Shown here: positions 9,062 to 17,261 of the stretch, in pieces
Layout of the letters: each line of letters opens with the position of its first letter
How positions within the stretch are numbered: the stretch's first letter is position 1
Assembly (NCBI GenBank): GCA_027451885.1
Contig: DAIDHX010000105.1
Location: 1-64,000, forward strand
DNA: 64,000 nucleotides
From: Planctomycetales bacterium
GTDB taxonomy: Bacteria > Planctomycetota > Planctomycetia > Isosphaerales > Isosphaeraceae
Direction of reading: 5' to 3'
Made by a program: the position numbers and the translations under genes
The notes under the pieces: model-generated
Databases searched by the model: none
What the model saw: only the letters and a program-made list of their open reading frames with translations
What the model was told of the DNA's origin: nothing

Positions 9062-11119
9062 TCAGGGCTTCTCCGTCGCCGATCTCGAGGGGACGTCCGG
9101 CGGCGGCTCTGCCTGGGCTCCCGCTGGCTTCAGATCCTGGTCCGTCGTGGAGTTCCTGAGTGCAAGATCAACCACCGCCAACTTGCGCGAGACCCGCGCC
9201 TGGTGCTGCATCAATCCTTCAAGCTTTGCCTGTCCAGTCTCGTACTGCGCTTCTGACACACGCAGCAACGATTCGTCTTTCCTGAGCTGCTCTTCCGACA
9301 CGACACCCGGGTTTTGACCGTTCAGGCGTTTGTACCGGGCGACCCTGGATGACGCGAAGTCACGCTCCGCCTTCAGTCGTGCGAGCTCCGCCTTGCCCTG
9401 CTTGATCCGTCCGCTCGTCGCCTCGGATTCCTCGAGCAGGTCGTCCTTGATGCCGCACAGCGTCGCCACAGTAATCAAGAGTTTCCCATGTTCTTGATCA
9501 AGAACACCTTGAGAGATAGCCTTGCGCTTGAAGAGCTCGGCCAGGCGTGCGTCCTGTTCCCGTTCGAACTTGAGCCTGGCCTCGAGCGCGTAGATCTCCC
9601 GGTTCGAGACCACAGGGAAGCCGGCGCTGATCGAGGTCTCGCTCGCCGCGGGTCGAGGCGCCTGCCGAGGCCCGGAGGGGTTTTCCTCAACCCCGGCCGG
9701 CGAGATTGGTTTGCCGGGCTGGGCTGGCTGGGGCTGGTTGGCAGGCACGAACATGGCCGGCCGATTGGCGAAGGGATCTTCGGGATGTGGCCGCGGTGGC
9801 ACGACGGCGTCCGCGAGCGGCGGCTGCGCCTGAACGGGGACCGCGGCGGGGACGCCGAGCGGCGGAGCCTGGGCGGGTTCAGGTTCAACCGCGAGTCCGT
9901 TCGGCTGGGCCGGCTGGCCGGCGACTGGCACAAGCGCGGGAGCGGAAGGCGCCGGCAGTACGGATGGTTGAGCGAATGGCGGCTGTGCGGCCCTGAGCAG
10001 CCTGAGAAGCTCGTCGAGCTTGGTTTCAAGCGCATGCAAGCGTTGATCCGTAGTTACGATGTTATGTTCATCTGGCGCTGCGGGTGCAACGGGGGCCGCG
10101 GGCGCGAGTGGAGTCGCGGGCGTGGGCGGGGCCGCGGGCGCGAGTGGAGCCGCGGGCGTGGGCAGGGCCGGCTGCGCGGGCGCGACTGCGACGGGAGTCG
10201 CGGGGGCGGCGGCCGGTTTGCTGGGTTGTTGTTGCCCGTTTGCGTTCGATTGCGCCAGCCGGGAACCGGCGAATGCACCCGAAACGCCGATTCCCGCCGC
10301 GAGCGCGGAGAAGCCGATCAGCTTGAACGTGGCGACTTTCATGGTGGTCAAGACTCCCTGGGCGAGCACCACCGCGCCTGCGGCCGCGGGGGCGGTCTGG
10401 GTCGAGGCGTATTGAACCGCGGCCGTCACGGTTCGCGAAAGGAGCGAGGCAGCGACCGGCTCGATGAGCGGCAAGGGCGGAAGCGCATCGCCGGCGGGAA
10501 CGATCGCGGGCGCGACGCCGCGGGCTGTCAGCCTGCGCCTCAGGATCTCTCGGCCGCGGGCCAATCGGCTGCGGACCGTGCCCACGGGACAGTCAAGCTC
10601 GCGTGCGGCCTGGTCGTGCGTGCGCCCTTTCAGGTAGCAGAGCAGAAGCGGCTGGCGATAGCGCAGCGGCAGCCGGTTGAGCTCGAAATCGAGGATCGGC
10701 CCGACGTCGTCGACCACCGTTTCGCCTGGGTCGGCGAAGAGTGTCACATCCGCCGCCGCGCCCTCGCGCGACCTTCTGCGCACCGCTTGCGTTCGTGCCC
10801 TCGCGGAGACCTTGCATGCCACGCCGTAGAGCCAGCACGAGAGCCGGCGGCCGTCTCGAATCCCACGCGCCTTGCGAGCCAGGATCAGAAACACAGCCTG
10901 AAACGCGTCCTCAACATCCCGCGGATCGACCAGCACGCGCCTGCAAATCCCCAGGATCATTGGACCGTGACGGGCCACGAGCGCCTCGAAGGCGTCCTCG
11001 TCAGCGGCCTCGGCGTATCGCTCGAGCAGCGCGGTGTCGTCCAGTCCGACGAGCGTTCCCGCTCCCCAGAGCCGTTCGAAACCACCCGCCAACGATCGTC
11101 GCCGGCCGCGGTATTCCAT
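9062..11119 (-). CDS. ECF sigma factor with membrane helix and long coiled-coil C-terminal extension
   Basis: A 685-residue protein. Residues 27-110 form sigma region 2 (ALVARHGPMILGICRRVL, DVEDAFQAVFLILARK) and 145-200 form region 4 (LPLRYRQPLLLCYLKG, CPVGTVRSRLARGR). A single hydrophobic segment follows at about 262-285, then an Ala/Pro-rich linker with repeated PAAP units (300-350), another low-complexity stretch, and a charged helical region from about 505 to 655. That last region, with RYKRLNGQNPGVVSEEQL, looks like the alpha-hairpin of HlyD/RND membrane-fusion proteins. Planctomycetes are known for ECF factors with long C-terminal extensions. The start ATG has GAGGAG eight bases upstream. 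No separate anti-sigma gene is adjacent, so the extension may anchor and control the sigma domain itself. Confidence 0.88.
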   Translation of the reverse strand: MEYRGRRRSLAGGFERLWGAGTLVGLDDTALLERYAEAADEDAFEALVARHGPMILGICRRVLVDPRDVEDAFQAVFLILARKARGIRDGRRLSCWLYGVACKVSARARTQAVRRRSREGAAADVTLFADPGETVVDDVGPILDFELNRLPLRYRQPLLLCYLKGRTHDQAARELDCPVGTVRSRLARGREILRRRLTARGVAPAIVPAGDALPPLPLIEPVAASLLSRTVTAAVQYASTQTAPAAAGAVVLAQGVLTTMKVATFKLIGFSALAAGIGVSGAFAGSRLAQSNANGQQQPSKPAAAPATPVAVAPAQPALPTPAAPLAPAAPPTPATPLAPAAPVAPAAPDEHNIVTTDQRLHALETKLDELLRLLRAAQPPFAQPSVLPAPSAPALVPVAGQPAQPNGLAVEPEPAQAPPLGVPAAVPVQAQPPLADAVVPPRPHPEDPFANRPAMFVPANQPQPAQPGKPISPAGVEENPSGPRQAPRPAASETSISAGFPVVSNREIYALEARLKFEREQDARLAELFKRKAISQGVLDQEHGKLLITVATLCGIKDDLLEESEATSGRIKQGKAELARLKAERDFASSRVARYKRLNGQNPGVVSEEQLRKDESLLRVSEAQYETGQAKLEGLMQHQARVSRKLAVVDLALRNSTTDQDLKPAGAQAEPPPDVPSRSATEKP

Positions 11120-11248
11120 CCCCTGCTCCTCAAACCTCGGTCATCTTCCCCTCTCCAACAGGGAATACTGCATCCCAGGGCCAAATCAATCCGCCATTTT
11201 CCCAGAATGTCTCAAATGCCCTGTTGGCGAGGACTTCCGCGCGAAGGG

Positions 11249-13717
11249 TTATTGGAACCGCAGGATCGTGAACGACCGCGCGGGGAAGGTGTACCGGGCT
11301 TTTCCGCCGGCAAGCTTATGCCGCCAGGTTGTCTCGTGCGGGACGACTCGATCGGGCGCATCGGCGGTGTTCACGGCCTCGAGCGCTCCGGAAAGCGCTT
11401 CCACCTGGGCGATCGGGAGCGCGGGTTGATAGCCATTCAGACCAAGTTCGACCAGGCGTGCCTCGGATCCCCAGTTCACAACCTGGATGACCAGCGTCTT
11501 GCCGTCTTCACTCTGCTTGGCATTGGCGTCAAGGGTCTCACGTTTGCCCTGGAGCGTCGTGGGCAGAACCCGCGGTTGGTGGTTGCGCCTGATCATTCGC
11601 GTGACGTATCCCGGCGGTTGCAGCCAGACCCGCGACGGGTTCAGAAACAGCAATCCCTGGTCCCAGCCATTATCGTTCTGCCCATCGGGCTGGAGGCAAT
11701 TCGCGGAGCAGACGATCGCGAGCGGATCGCCGATTCGCTCGACCTCCAGATTCGCAAGCGCGTTCGAAAGGGCGCGTTTGACGGCGTGATTGCCCGAATT
11801 GTACTCGAAGATGACCACCTTGAACCGCGCCTGGGGCGCGAGCTTACCAAGTTGATCAATATAGCTATGTTCAGGCTTAAGACCATTGGGCTGCGGCGGG
11901 TGATCGGTGCCCACGTGGATATCGAACCAGACCTCGCGGTTGTGGGCCTTCGCGAGCTCGAGGATCTTCTGGTGCGCGGCGAGCGTGTTTGCCGCCACGC
12001 CCCCTTCGAAGTGGAACGGATCGGTGATCACGCGGCCGTAGGCGAAATCGCCCACCACGAGGATGATCTCGGGATCCTGAGCCCAGATGGCTTTCGCGAG
12101 CCGTTCGAATTTGCGGTAGTAGGCCTCGTTCACGGCCTCTTCGTTGCCGAGCTCGAGGTGCCTGAGGCGGTAAGGCGCGGGATGCCCGTCCTGGGCGCGC
12201 TTGCGACCCCAGGTGGTATCGGCCGCCCCGTTCGCGTACTGCACGAAGTCAGCCATGTCAGCCGGCGTCTCATCCATGTTAACGGCGGGAACGGCGAGAA
12301 AGCCGGCGGCCTCGCAGAATCTGAGGAAGTCGAAGATGCCCCAGCCGTTGGACGAGTAAGGATACCAGGTGCCCGCGGTGGGGGGCCGCCGGTCCCGGGG
12401 ACCGATCATGTTTTTCCAGCGATAGGCTGGGTGATTGATCATCGACCCGCCGTAGCGCAGGACGTTGATTCCTTGATCGATGAGCGCCTGGGCGACGTCC
12501 TTGCGATCGGGCAGATTGTGGAACCGGCCCCAGGGCCCGGGCTGAAGAAACGCATGGCCCAGTTCAATTGCGCCTGGGCTTTCGAGCATGATCGAGAACC
12601 GGCCCCGGTCGTCGCTGGCCTGGGGAGTGATGGAGAAGTCATGGCGTGTCCATTCTGTGCCGCGGACCTCGAAGCTGGTCTGGCCCAGGTTGCGTTGGCC
12701 ATCGCCGCCTTGGCATGCCAGCGAGATACGTGCAGGTTCGTCCGCTCGGGCCCAGACATGGCCCTCGTAGGGCTTGCCTGCCTGAAAGTTCATGCCCCAG
12801 CGGTTGAGCCCGGCATTCGCGATGCCGACCGCCCCTGCGCCCGCGGTGAACTCGAGGCGCTGGGATTGCCGGCCGACAAACGGGTGATTGGAGACGATCG
12901 CGGTGCGGCCCTGGGCGCTGCCGAGGCGGAACGCCGTCCACATGCCGCTTGTGCCCGAGCCGAGCTCGCTTCCCTGCGCGGTGAACGGCAGATTCCAGGA
13001 CTGATCACCCGCCTTCGCGTGGAGATTACGGAACCGCGCAGGCCGCTGCCAGACCCGCAGCCCCAGCCCCGCGCCCTTGAGAGGATGCGCGCGATCCTCA
13101 AAGGTCAGCCGCGGCTCGCCGTTCACGACGATCTCAAGCCGGTCGCCCTGCATGCGCACCACGAGCGGGATCCACGTTTTCACGGGCACGGGGCAGGAAA
13201 CGCGCTCGATCGGCTCCCAGTTCCGCCTGTGCCTGCCGAGCACAAGATGGTTGGAGGTTTCCAGCGAGACTTCATATCCGGTGAAGCTGTCCGCGCCCCG
13301 CTCTGGACGATCCACCTTGACGATCAGGCCCGCGTTGCCGCCTCGATCGGTCGGGAAATAGACCTCGACGCCGACCTCGCCGCTGGAGACGGCCGCGCCG
13401 CGCGCAACCAGCTTGGGGCCGTCGCCGCCGTCGCAGTACGCCTCGTCGCCGATCGCCCGCCAGCCTTCCTCAACGGGATCAAACGGGCCTGGAAACCGCG
13501 GCGGTTCCTGGAAGCTCTCGCCGAAGATCATCTGGCTGTAGAGTCCGCCGTAGATCTCGTGATTGACGTCCTCGATACACGCCCCGGCAAGATAGGGGCT
13601 GATCAAGCGCCCGGGACGCGTGGCGTCGACCTTGAGAATCGCCTCCTGCGCGGCTGCGTACCCCGCGTATCCGAACAACCCGCAGACCACGAGCAATAAC
13701 CACCATGCTCTTCGCAT
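11249..13717 (-). CDS. Secreted alpha-L-arabinofuranosidase, GH51-like
   Basis: An 822-residue protein. The ATG at 13717 begins a clear signal peptide (RRAWWLLLVVCGLFGYAGYAAA) ending near residue 24; a GTG at 13756 overlapping the upstream stop is the alternative. The mature N-terminus (SPYLAGACIEDVNHEIYGGLYSQMI split over the strand) is typical of GH51. An inserted beta-rich, lectin-like domain occupies about 100-260. The catalytic acid/base is probably Glu526 in ELGNEE and the nucleophile Glu638 in VIFEYNSG. GH51 enzymes release arabinose from arabinan and arabinoxylan. It is the last gene of a unit with two SDR dehydrogenases, which suggests oxidation of a released sugar. Confidence 0.87.
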   Translation of the reverse strand: MRRAWWLLLVVCGLFGYAGYAAAQEAILKVDATRPGRLISPYLAGACIEDVNHEIYGGLYSQMIFGESFQEPPRFPGPFDPVEEGWRAIGDEAYCDGGDGPKLVARGAAVSSGEVGVEVYFPTDRGGNAGLIVKVDRPERGADSFTGYEVSLETSNHLVLGRHRRNWEPIERVSCPVPVKTWIPLVVRMQGDRLEIVVNGEPRLTFEDRAHPLKGAGLGLRVWQRPARFRNLHAKAGDQSWNLPFTAQGSELGSGTSGMWTAFRLGSAQGRTAIVSNHPFVGRQSQRLEFTAGAGAVGIANAGLNRWGMNFQAGKPYEGHVWARADEPARISLACQGGDGQRNLGQTSFEVRGTEWTRHDFSITPQASDDRGRFSIMLESPGAIELGHAFLQPGPWGRFHNLPDRKDVAQALIDQGINVLRYGGSMINHPAYRWKNMIGPRDRRPPTAGTWYPYSSNGWGIFDFLRFCEAAGFLAVPAVNMDETPADMADFVQYANGAADTTWGRKRAQDGHPAPYRLRHLELGNEEAVNEAYYRKFERLAKAIWAQDPEIILVVGDFAYGRVITDPFHFEGGVAANTLAAHQKILELAKAHNREVWFDIHVGTDHPPQPNGLKPEHSYIDQLGKLAPQARFKVVIFEYNSGNHAVKRALSNALANLEVERIGDPLAIVCSANCLQPDGQNDNGWDQGLLFLNPSRVWLQPPGYVTRMIRRNHQPRVLPTTLQGKRETLDANAKQSEDGKTLVIQVVNWGSEARLVELGLNGYQPALPIAQVEALSGALEAVNTADAPDRVVPHETTWRHKLAGGKARYTFPARSFTILRFQ

Positions 13718-15393: not shown

Positions 15394-15626
15394 GTCTACC
15401 TGTGATCCCGGAAGCGCGGAACAAGAGGCGCCGCGGCCGCGTGCCAGGCGCAGGCGATAACCCTCATACCGGATGCGCACGATCGCCTTGAACCCCTAGA
15501 GCTTAGCCGCCCGCGGGGCTGTGAAACAGGGTGTCTCGCTTGCACGATCCGCCCCGCGCGGTTACGATCGATTCGATATGACGTTCGTCCGAGAGATCGA
15601 TGGGGTTCCGTTCTGGGGGCCTGGCG

Positions 15627-17261
15627 ATGCGTGAGCTGGAGCGGCCGGTGGCGCGGGTATTCAGGCGGATGCGGCTACAGCGGCTCCTGAACGCCTTTTT
15701 CTGGACTCAGGCGGTTGGGTTGCTGGTTCTGGCGGGCGTGTTCGGGCTCGAGAAGCTGGGGAGCTTCCATCTCCCCGCGCCCGCCTGGGCGCCCTATGCC
15801 GCCTCGGGATGCGTGGGCTTGCTGCTGGCGACGATCGTCGCGCTGTTCACGGGGCCGAGCCGGCTCGACGCGGCGACCGCGATCGATCGCGCGTATCAGC
15901 TCGACGAGCGCATCAGCTCCGCGCTTACGTTGCCGCTCGAGCTCCGCGACACACCCGCCGGGCGGGCGCTCGTGGCCGACGCGCGGAAGCGGATCGCCGA
16001 GATCGACGTGGTGGCTGAGTTCAGCTTCCGCGCACCCCGGCGGTCGTGGCTGATTCTCCTGCCTCTGACGGTGCTTGGCCTTGTGCTTGCCGCGCCTGCG
16101 CTCGCACCCAAAATGGGGCTCGTCAAGGCCGCGCCCGTGGTCGAATCCGAGCGCAAGGCCCTCGCGGAGAAGGCGCAGGAGCTTTCCCGCAAGGTCAACA
16201 GCCAGCGCGAGGCGATCGACAAGAAGACCTATCCCGAGGCCGCGAATCTGCTCGCCTCGGTGGAGAAGAAGATCAGCGAGCTGGCCAAGGCCCCTCCGGC
16301 CGCGAAGGACAAGCTCATGCTCGAGCTGAACAAGCTCACCGACTCGCTCAAGGAGCGGCAGAAGCAGCTTGCCTCGTCCGAGCAGATCCAGAAGCAGCTT
16401 CAGCGGATGAAGGAAATGTCCAATCAGGGGCCGGCCGAGCAGCTCGCGCGCCAGCTCGCGCGGGGCGACTTCAAGAAGGCCGCCGAGCAGATACAGCAAC
16501 TCCAGGACAAACTGGCCTCGGGCAAGCTTTCCGAGCAGGAAAAGAAGTCGCTTGAGAAGCAGCTTGGCGAGATGTCGCAAAAGCTTGCCAGGATGGCCAA
16601 TCTGGAGGATCGCAAGAAGCAGCTTGAGGAGGCGCGGAAGAATGGCGCCATCTCGCAGAAGCAGTTTGAAAAGGAGATGCAGAAGCTCGCCGAGCAGTCG
16701 AAGGGGATGCAGAAGCTCGGGCAGCTTGCCAAGCAGCTTGCCCAGGCCCAGAAGGAGCTTCAGAAGGGGGATTCCAGGAAGGCGGCGGAATCGCTGGGGA
16801 TGACGCAAAAGCAGCTCGAGAACCTGGCGAAGAACCTGCAGGAAATCGAGCAGCTTGATTCGACCATGGCCGACATCCAGAACACCAAGGAAGGGATGAG
16901 CGGCGACGACATGAACCAGCTTGGCGACGACATGAACAACCTGGGCCAGGGGCTGGGCAACCGCCGTGGCCGTGGGCCTGGCCTGGGTCGCGGCCGGGGT
17001 GCGGGGTACAGGCCCGAAGCAGAGAGCGAGACGTCGACCTACCAGACGCGTGTGGCCCAGCAGCTCAAGAAGGGCAAGGCCGTCGCCACTGGGTTTACCG
17101 AAGCAAGCAAGACCGTCAAGGGGCAGAGCACAATCAACATCCAGGCCGAAATCGACGCCGGTGTCGGCTCAAGCGCCGAGGCGCTTTCGAACCAGCGCAT
17201 CCCCAAGAGTCTCGAGAAGCACGTCCGCTCGTATTACGACCAGATCTCAAAGCCGCAGTGA
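15627..17261 (+). CDS. Membrane-anchored coiled-coil protein, unknown function
   Basis: A 544-residue protein. Two N-terminal hydrophobic segments (about 30-80) and a third near 140-160 anchor a very long Lys/Glu/Gln-rich coiled coil (about 175-420) with repeated LAKQLAQ and EKKSLEKQL-like heptads. A Gly/Arg-rich stretch (RGRGPGLGRGRG) and a conserved-looking C-terminal domain follow. The layout recalls DUF4175-like membrane proteins found with MoxR/VWA systems, but those partners are absent here. The ATG at 15627 is preferred (MRELERPVARVFRR); an ATG at 15600 with GAGAG upstream would add nine residues. A scaffold or envelope role is only inference. Confidence 0.75.
   Translation: MRELERPVARVFRRMRLQRLLNAFFWTQAVGLLVLAGVFGLEKLGSFHLPAPAWAPYAASGCVGLLLATIVALFTGPSRLDAATAIDRAYQLDERISSALTLPLELRDTPAGRALVADARKRIAEIDVVAEFSFRAPRRSWLILLPLTVLGLVLAAPALAPKMGLVKAAPVVESERKALAEKAQELSRKVNSQREAIDKKTYPEAANLLASVEKKISELAKAPPAAKDKLMLELNKLTDSLKERQKQLASSEQIQKQLQRMKEMSNQGPAEQLARQLARGDFKKAAEQIQQLQDKLASGKLSEQEKKSLEKQLGEMSQKLARMANLEDRKKQLEEARKNGAISQKQFEKEMQKLAEQSKGMQKLGQLAKQLAQAQKELQKGDSRKAAESLGMTQKQLENLAKNLQEIEQLDSTMADIQNTKEGMSGDDMNQLGDDMNNLGQGLGNRRGRGPGLGRGRGAGYRPEAESETSTYQTRVAQQLKKGKAVATGFTEASKTVKGQSTINIQAEIDAGVGSSAEALSNQRIPKSLEKHVRSYYDQISKPQ

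Follow-up and report, generated by a model that had tools for sequence, protein, structure and literature searches.

Extended and tethered ECF sigma factors

Planctomycetes have numerous ECF sigma factors whose C-terminal extensions are unexplained and which often lack an obvious anti-sigma partner; tethered as well as extended ECF sigma factors are already known. The relevant passages of PMC8999054 describe for ECF57 a conserved cysteine in each of sigma2 and sigma4, without giving their positions, and a WD40-like C-terminal extension that is prevalent in some ECF57 members. The same source lists IutY (ECF243) and ECF48/52/53 (SCO4117) as membrane-fused ECFs that are thought to be released by proteolysis (PMC8999054, in part).

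The open reading frame analysed here lies at 9062..11119 on the reverse strand of a 64,000-nt stretch of DNA (the window) from a 6.18-Mb planctomycete draft genome, and encodes a 685-aa protein in which a sigma factor is followed by a probable membrane segment, a linker and an adaptor-type hairpin tail. It resembles ECF57 in its planctomycete origin, the lack of an adjacent anti-sigma gene, cysteines in sigma2 and sigma4, and a WD40-like relative (L125), but it carries a HlyD-type hairpin and not WD40 repeats, and its family has a conserved internal Shine-Dalgarno (SD)-like motif with an ATG that the ECF57 passages of PMC8999054 do not mention. With IutY and ECF48/52/53 it probably shares the combination of sigma, transmembrane segment and outer domain in one chain, while differing from them in that no zinc-finger anti-sigma domain was found by Pfam, in the adaptor hairpin on the predicted outer side and in the putative in-frame internal start.

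The periplasmic adaptors of HlyD/RND systems (MacA, AcrA, HlyD) have an alpha-hairpin with an RLS-like tip in common with the window protein, and some of its paralogs share further domains with them, whereas the window protein itself has a sigma N-terminus and neither a barrel-sandwich nor a beta-barrel domain, and none of the seven scanned neighbours is a transporter. The small HlyD whose hairpin is most like the window tail belongs to a GAF-HlyD / HlyD / Peptidase_M50 module of Planctomycetes, which in contrast to the window gene is a separate operon without a sigma factor. In-frame internal starts are found in cheA, infB and clpB, where, as proposed here for the window gene, one frame with two starts gives a shorter product without the N-terminal domain; unlike in these genes, the short product would switch compartment, and the site recurs across paralogs with unrelated outer domains. 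A literature search at the level of titles and abstract openings, with incomplete coverage of ECF classification and planctomycete genomics, returned no sigma-HlyD fusions, and a narrower query at the same level, likewise incomplete in coverage, returned no internal starts in ECF genes.

Sigma domains, membrane segment and linker

All features of the ORF are on the reverse strand. The sequence has a Shine-Dalgarno-like GAGGAG (11126..11131) 6 nt upstream of the full-length ATG. Sigma region 2 (residues 47-105; 10805..10981) scored 35 bits against Sigma70_r2 (cut-off 24) and matched region 2 of sigmaE with a VIA-align Z of 12.2, while sigma region 4 (residues 146-194; 10538..10684), also recovered by fold comparison, scored 54 bits against Sigma70_r4_2 (cut-off 25.7). 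TIGR02937 matched with 57.6 bits (cut-off 42.9), and the presence of sigma2 and sigma4 without sigma3 is that of an ECF (sigma70 group 4) protein. An AlphaFold model built from 42 sequences had a mean pLDDT of 84.8 over residues 21-300 and a fold resembling ECF sigma factors. Past residue 200 there were no Pfam matches, including HlyD, WD40-like and zinc-finger anti-sigma families. The two ECF57-type cysteines, C59 in sigma2 (41/42) and C161 in sigma4 (31/41), occurred together in 31 of the 42 sequences, and the ORF belongs to a large planctomycete ECF family with C-terminal extensions, probably of the ECF57 type.

Behind the sigma domains follows a conserved juxtamembrane element (residues 222-260; 10340..10456), with L226 conserved in 35, T230 in 38, L252 in 37 and M260 in 38 of 42 sequences, and with AlphaFold helices of mean pLDDT 81-93 per ten-residue block. 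The hydrophobic segment (residues 264-286; 10262..10330), delimited by hydropathy and family comparison, peaks at about residues 267-285 with a modest Kyte-Doolittle 19-mer score of 1.67, belongs to a long helix in the model, and is flanked by one K/R per side within the 20-21 residues counted. From hydropathy and the model, the likeliest reading is an inner-membrane anchor of the long form; in a short form the same segment would be signal-peptide-like. The linker (residues 293-504; 9608..10243) was defined by composition, with 52 Pro and 47 Ala among 212 residues. The combination in one protein of sigma domains, a hydrophobic helix, an Ala/Pro-rich linker and a helical tail, as proposed in the original prediction, was thus recovered by Pfam, hydropathy, composition and AlphaFold.

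Whole-sigma fold matches included several sigmas in complex with anti-sigma factors, namely SigW and CnrH, with an rmsd of 6.7-8.7 Å over 152-157 residues, and BldN, with 13.7 over 135, compared with 22-28 Å for RNAP-bound sigmas fitted over both domains. The aligned ranges end before the juxtamembrane helices, so that the idea of a fused anti-sigma domain in these helices is only a hint from the model. On the opposite strand, a 1403-aa open frame (9488-13699(+)) overlaps both the sigma gene and the arabinofuranosidase gene and is probably a mere high-GC effect.

The tail carries an adaptor-type hairpin

Residues 506-657 (9149..9604) form a three-helix adaptor-type tail, identified by profile and fold searches and modelled with pLDDT 87.3 as helices 506-531, 537-602 and 609-657 without strands. 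Within the tail, residues 574-630 (9230..9400) share homology with the alpha-hairpin found in free HlyD adaptors of planctomycetes, both by hmmsearch (domain E 3.3e-12) and by hhalign, where the profile of ten tails aligned to that of 15 free HlyD proteins with a probability of 98% and a score of 92.2. Control scores were far lower, with a maximum of 18.8 for 60 heptad-preserving column shuffles, 11.0 for the reversed tail and 15.2 for an unrelated coiled coil of the window. The stretch RYKRLNGQNPGVVSEEQL (residues 595-612) lies inside this hairpin, and the tip RYKRLNGQNPGVVS (residues 595-608; 9296..9337) reads R-x3-L-x8-S, with R595, L599 and S608 in a spacing identical to that of the free HlyDs. 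The name RLS motif for the adaptor tip is taken from a figure legend.

Searching the genomes with the tail alone retrieved tails fused to sigma as well as free proteins, about 310-375 aa long, and the three free relatives put through Pfam (L047, L039 and the own-genome copy) were all HlyD adaptors. A profile search of the PDB ranked eight adaptor sequences (MexJ, MacA, AcrA) ahead of all others among 26, with marginal E values of 0.01-0.1, Foldseek ranked HlyD first (E 0.013) with unrelated helical proteins just behind, and VIA-align superposed the tail on MacA at 1.3 Å over 87 residues. Adaptors and unrelated F-BAR proteins had about the same Z (11.7 vs 11.4), the F-BAR proteins in longer, looser fits; fold comparison alone was not decisive for adaptor identity. 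The HlyD-like hairpin of the original prediction is borne out by the profile homology with its controls, a tail model of pLDDT 87, and paralogs with HlyD domains at the same place.

Structure prediction and profile searches of the C-terminus returned the adaptor hairpin and neither the barrel-sandwich (lipoyl) nor the beta-barrel domain, with no HlyD Pfam match to the ORF and no strands in the tail model. A membrane-fusion protein is therefore ruled out as the product of the ORF, and the tail is a hairpin borrowed from adaptors and no part of a pump: the earlier reading holds for the hairpin and fails for the membrane-fusion protein, of which the hairpin alone is present. At the first tail tip (window 9512-9547), R525, L529 and S536 are arranged as R-x3-L-x6-S, the classical adaptor-tip spacing, so that adaptor-like tips may be present at both ends of the tail.

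Of 298 ORFs taken from HlyD loci of its own genome, one HlyD (E 1.5e-15) was the nearest relative of the tail, with the next at E 9.9e-6. This HlyD sits between GAF-HlyD and M50-HlyD genes (L161:2032-7434, own genome C145), and the order GAF-HlyD / HlyD / M50-HlyD was found in 11 of 11 fetched regions, as judged by length, protein-start similarity and the HExxH motif, with Pfam run on one region only. A section of PMC4452313 describes a related module. Intramembrane protease activity is possible for the M50 protein, which contains HEFGH and, in S. acidiphila, NANPLLRYDG as well.

One chassis with many outer modules

A query of sigma plus membrane segment was matched at E 1e-20 in at least 37 of the 45 genomes of the family. 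On this common chassis, the genome itself has HlyD domains in L056 (HlyD_D23, 71.7 bits, cut-off 30) and, above the HlyD_3 cut-off, in L059 and one of two L060 copies; other modules are Poly_export/SLBB (L057), a di-haem oxidoreductase (L061) and an STN-like domain below the Pfam cut-off (L055). Other genomes combine the chassis with HlyD_D23 above cut-off (L070 and L132), carboxypeptidase-regulatory repeats (L121, L115), an OEP segment (L095), DUF1559 (L134) and WD40-like repeats (L125, PD40 with 48.2 bits), and many chassis tails have no Pfam name. A further four were called HlyD by eye without a match above cut-off, namely L067 (to which the Pfam scan was not applied), L071, one L060 copy and L124.

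The hairpin tail was in frame with sigma in at least 22 places, in at least 17 of 45 genomes and at least seven genus codes; this tally was made by hand and comprises 21 places with a listed sigma match, one of them with a stop inside sigma, plus L041, whose sigma domains were identified separately. In a quick tree bearing on a single gain of HlyD-type modules, one clade of HlyD and hairpin members was only weakly disfavoured (AU p 0.072) and a clade of HlyD alone gave p 0.32.

A conserved putative internal start site at the membrane segment

At the end of the juxtamembrane element, the SD-like motif AGGGAG (10354..10359) stands 11 nt upstream of an in-frame ATG (M260; 10340..10342), which is proposed, from comparisons across the family and the phylum, as the start of a 426-aa sigma-less product. 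The original prediction had omitted this site at 10340-10359, as well as the large known class of C-terminally extended planctomycete ECFs. For comparison at the DNA level, 95 family ORFs were reduced by eight duplicates or fragments to 87, of which 75 have a Met in the M260 column. The consensus upstream of this Met is AAGGAG-like and ends 11 nt before the ATG, and a motif agreeing with AAGGAGGT over 4 nt or more was present at 69 of the 75 juxtamembrane Mets vs 187 of 789 other internal Mets, and at 14 of 23 HlyD operon starts. A cruder SD count gave 59/81 for the juxtamembrane Met, 30/69 for the first ORF starts and 112/741 for other Mets. The window motif itself is a 4-nt match, and 11 nt, the typical distance to the ATG, is long.

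Amino acids and codon usage explain part of this signal. After removal of near-duplicates, the SD was found in 57 of 63 sequences; synonymous shuffling, repeated 20 times, left it in 33.5 on average and never in more than 38, so that about half (33.5/63) are expected to have a 4-nt match through amino acids and codon usage alone. Local folding at the M260 site was weaker in the real sequences (-8.96 kcal/mol) than in synonymous shuffles (-11.68), while at six control offsets the real sequences were as structured as the shuffled ones, or more. Gly255 was encoded in 58 members by GGA (47), GGG (9), GGC (1) or GGT (1), whereas seven other conserved glycines mostly used GGC or GGG, and the purine-rich motif was still kept where KE, RR or EE replaced QG. 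The nucleotide profile of the family had no conserved slippery sequence for programmed frameshifting at the SD-like motif.

Within a 21-codon window at the junction, an in-frame SD with ATG was present in 69 of 87 family members, including L057, L139 and L133 at a shifted position, vs 123 of 2392 control windows (5%). By the rule used, 18 of 87 members lacked it; most of these are long-tailed, among them the HlyD fusion L070 and the di-haem protein L061, and in three (L062, L063, L073) the tail, at 55-73 aa, leaves no room for an outer domain. A second, phylum-wide set from other families, with at most 48% identity to the first set and one extra row left out for its short tail, had SD and ATG in 24 of 44 vs 69 of 1217 controls (6%), and 20 of 44 were without; some of the 44 are remote and do not necessarily share the chassis.

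The predicted short product begins with MKVATFKLIGFSALAAGIGVSGAFAGSRLAQ, which is signal-peptide-like, and the first ten residues were net positive in 72 of the 75 juxtamembrane-Met starts. At the level of these nucleotide comparisons, the internal start site is under selection, with SD and ATG kept beyond the needs of the protein sequence. The conserved SD and ATG, the codon bias at Gly255, the weak structure and the shuffle controls make it probable that the gene gives two products, a sigma factor tethered to the membrane and an outer protein that lacks sigma. A close relative (L065:12042-13715, the same as L104) has a stop codon within sigma; its membrane segment and tail are still open, so a sigma-less product could still be made there.

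Gene neighbourhood

Pfam identified the seven neighbours as an aminotransferase, an isochorismatase, an acyltransferase, an arabinofuranosidase, two SDRs and a DUF4175-like protein. There was neither an anti-sigma gene among these seven, in agreement with what had been read from the sequence at the outset, nor a partner transporter. The genome has 57 places with Sigma70_r2 and 4 with zf-HC2, so few of its ECFs can have an anti-sigma factor of the zf-HC2 kind, the one kind sought. Among seven regions inspected by eye, five of them with sigma-HlyD paralogs, no transporter directly adjoined such a paralog; an RND-like gene lies about 6 kb from the sigma-HlyD paralog in L059.

BLAST of the loci of six relatives (L104-L109) found DUF4175-like and isochorismatase genes in L104, L106, L107 and L108, and additionally a class-V aminotransferase in L104, L107 and L108, with the sigma locus between the aminotransferase and the DUF4175-like gene; L105 (near a contig end) and L109 had no window neighbour genes. 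In the window, arabinofuranosidase and the two SDR genes separate the DUF4175-like gene from sigma. The DUF4175-like membrane protein of the window (15600-17261; 21.4 bits, cut-off 27.3) has a long coiled coil, its relative adjoins the sigma gene in the four loci L104, L106, L107 and L108, and it is a candidate partner or target of the sigma protein.

A probable receptor gene with two products

The best explanation of ORF 9062-11119, which I consider reasonably probable, is a receptor gene with two products. It draws on what sequence comparison establishes, namely the fusion itself, the homology of the hairpin, a chassis common to paralogs with envelope modules, and a conserved SD and ATG at the start of the membrane segment. 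From the GAGGAG-6 nt-ATG start, the first product would be an ECF sigma factor anchored in the inner membrane by one helix, with the long linker and the adaptor-type coiled-coil hairpin as its outer part. The second, from the in-frame start at M260, would be the outer part without sigma and with a signal-peptide-like N-terminus. The sigma-less form may be the bulk outer component, which a few sigma-bearing copies would join via the hairpin and whose state they would report; with a sigma-less majority and a sigma-bearing minority, the oligomer could report its state without every subunit bearing sigma. At the membrane sigma would be kept inactive, with a possible role for the juxtamembrane helices, and it would be freed through intramembrane proteolysis, as for IutY, or a conformational change; by homology, the M50 protease encoded beside the HlyD with the nearest hairpin is one candidate for the release step. 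Release by an envelope signal, as originally envisaged, is plausible.

Other explanations account for parts of the same evidence. The gene could have one product, a tethered ECF whose periplasmic hairpin senses the envelope, with the SD-like motif acting as a ribosome pause for helix insertion and the Met kept for protein reasons. The conservation of L226, T230 and L252, which an SD does not explain, speaks for this, and proteolysis-activated tethered ECFs are known or proposed (IutY, SCO4117; in passages of PMC8999054). ECFs of Tuwongella, another planctomycete, were recovered in Triton and SDS fractions according to part of PMC8567305, which is favourable too, although this suits membrane tethering across the class and is not evidence on the window protein. 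A pause requires no ATG, yet the ATG joins the SD in 69 of 87 members, a few of them at the shifted position, and the dip in mRNA structure is centred on the ATG as starts would show. I regard a single product as rather unlikely.

That the long form is a polyprotein without a signalling role, always cut at the membrane segment so that sigma is constitutively free and the outer protein secreted, appears improbable given that sigma and hairpin tail stay in one frame in members from at least seven genus codes and that the juxtamembrane residues are conserved beyond the needs of a spacer; the segment is, on the other hand, signal-peptide-like, with AxA-like sites in 75 of 75 by a loose pattern. 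A tail that is a generic oligomerisation coiled coil unrelated to HlyD adaptors would agree with the similar Z of unrelated helical bundles in the structure matches, but shuffles, reversal and the unrelated coiled coil all scored below 19 vs 92.2, and the tip motif and its spacing are common to free HlyDs, which leaves this reading very improbable.

The proposed two-product gene suggests, from its sequence, a wiring of the cell envelope to transcription within one gene, and sigma-HlyD adaptor fusions would tie export machinery directly to transcription. If the internal start is true, annotations of the extended ECF class miss a second protein per gene, there is one reason for the extensions being envelope modules, and the regulation can be tested through a single synonymous change. 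A wider and speculative picture, which I think unlikely as a whole, is that the envelope devices of planctomycetes, among them adaptor rings and export pores, consist mostly of sigma-less subunits from internal starts, laced with a few tethered-sigma subunits from the same gene. Each device would then be a sensor whose assembly or failure frees sigma, perhaps via an M50 complex that shares the hairpin, and the larger genomes of the group would hold dozens of such one-gene links between envelope and transcription.

Unusual family members

Several chassis proteins stood out in the course of this analysis. L055:7406-11002, in the same genome, is a tandem pair of sigma, membrane helix and STN-like domain, with one STN match below cut-off and the second assigned by likeness. 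L060:6857-12350 is a tandem sigma pair whose outer parts resemble HlyD, in one case with a score above the HlyD_3 cut-off and in the other by eye, adjoined by a third, partial HlyD-like ORF and with no transporter seen beside it. In a Gemmataceae genome, L122:3481-6036 joins sigma and the membrane helix to a caspase-like (Peptidase_C14) domain. A single protein, L061:8550-10919, links sigma and the membrane helix to a di-haem oxidoreductase (DHOR, 88.8 bits); it lacks the internal ATG and is possibly a haem- or redox-linked tethered sigma factor.
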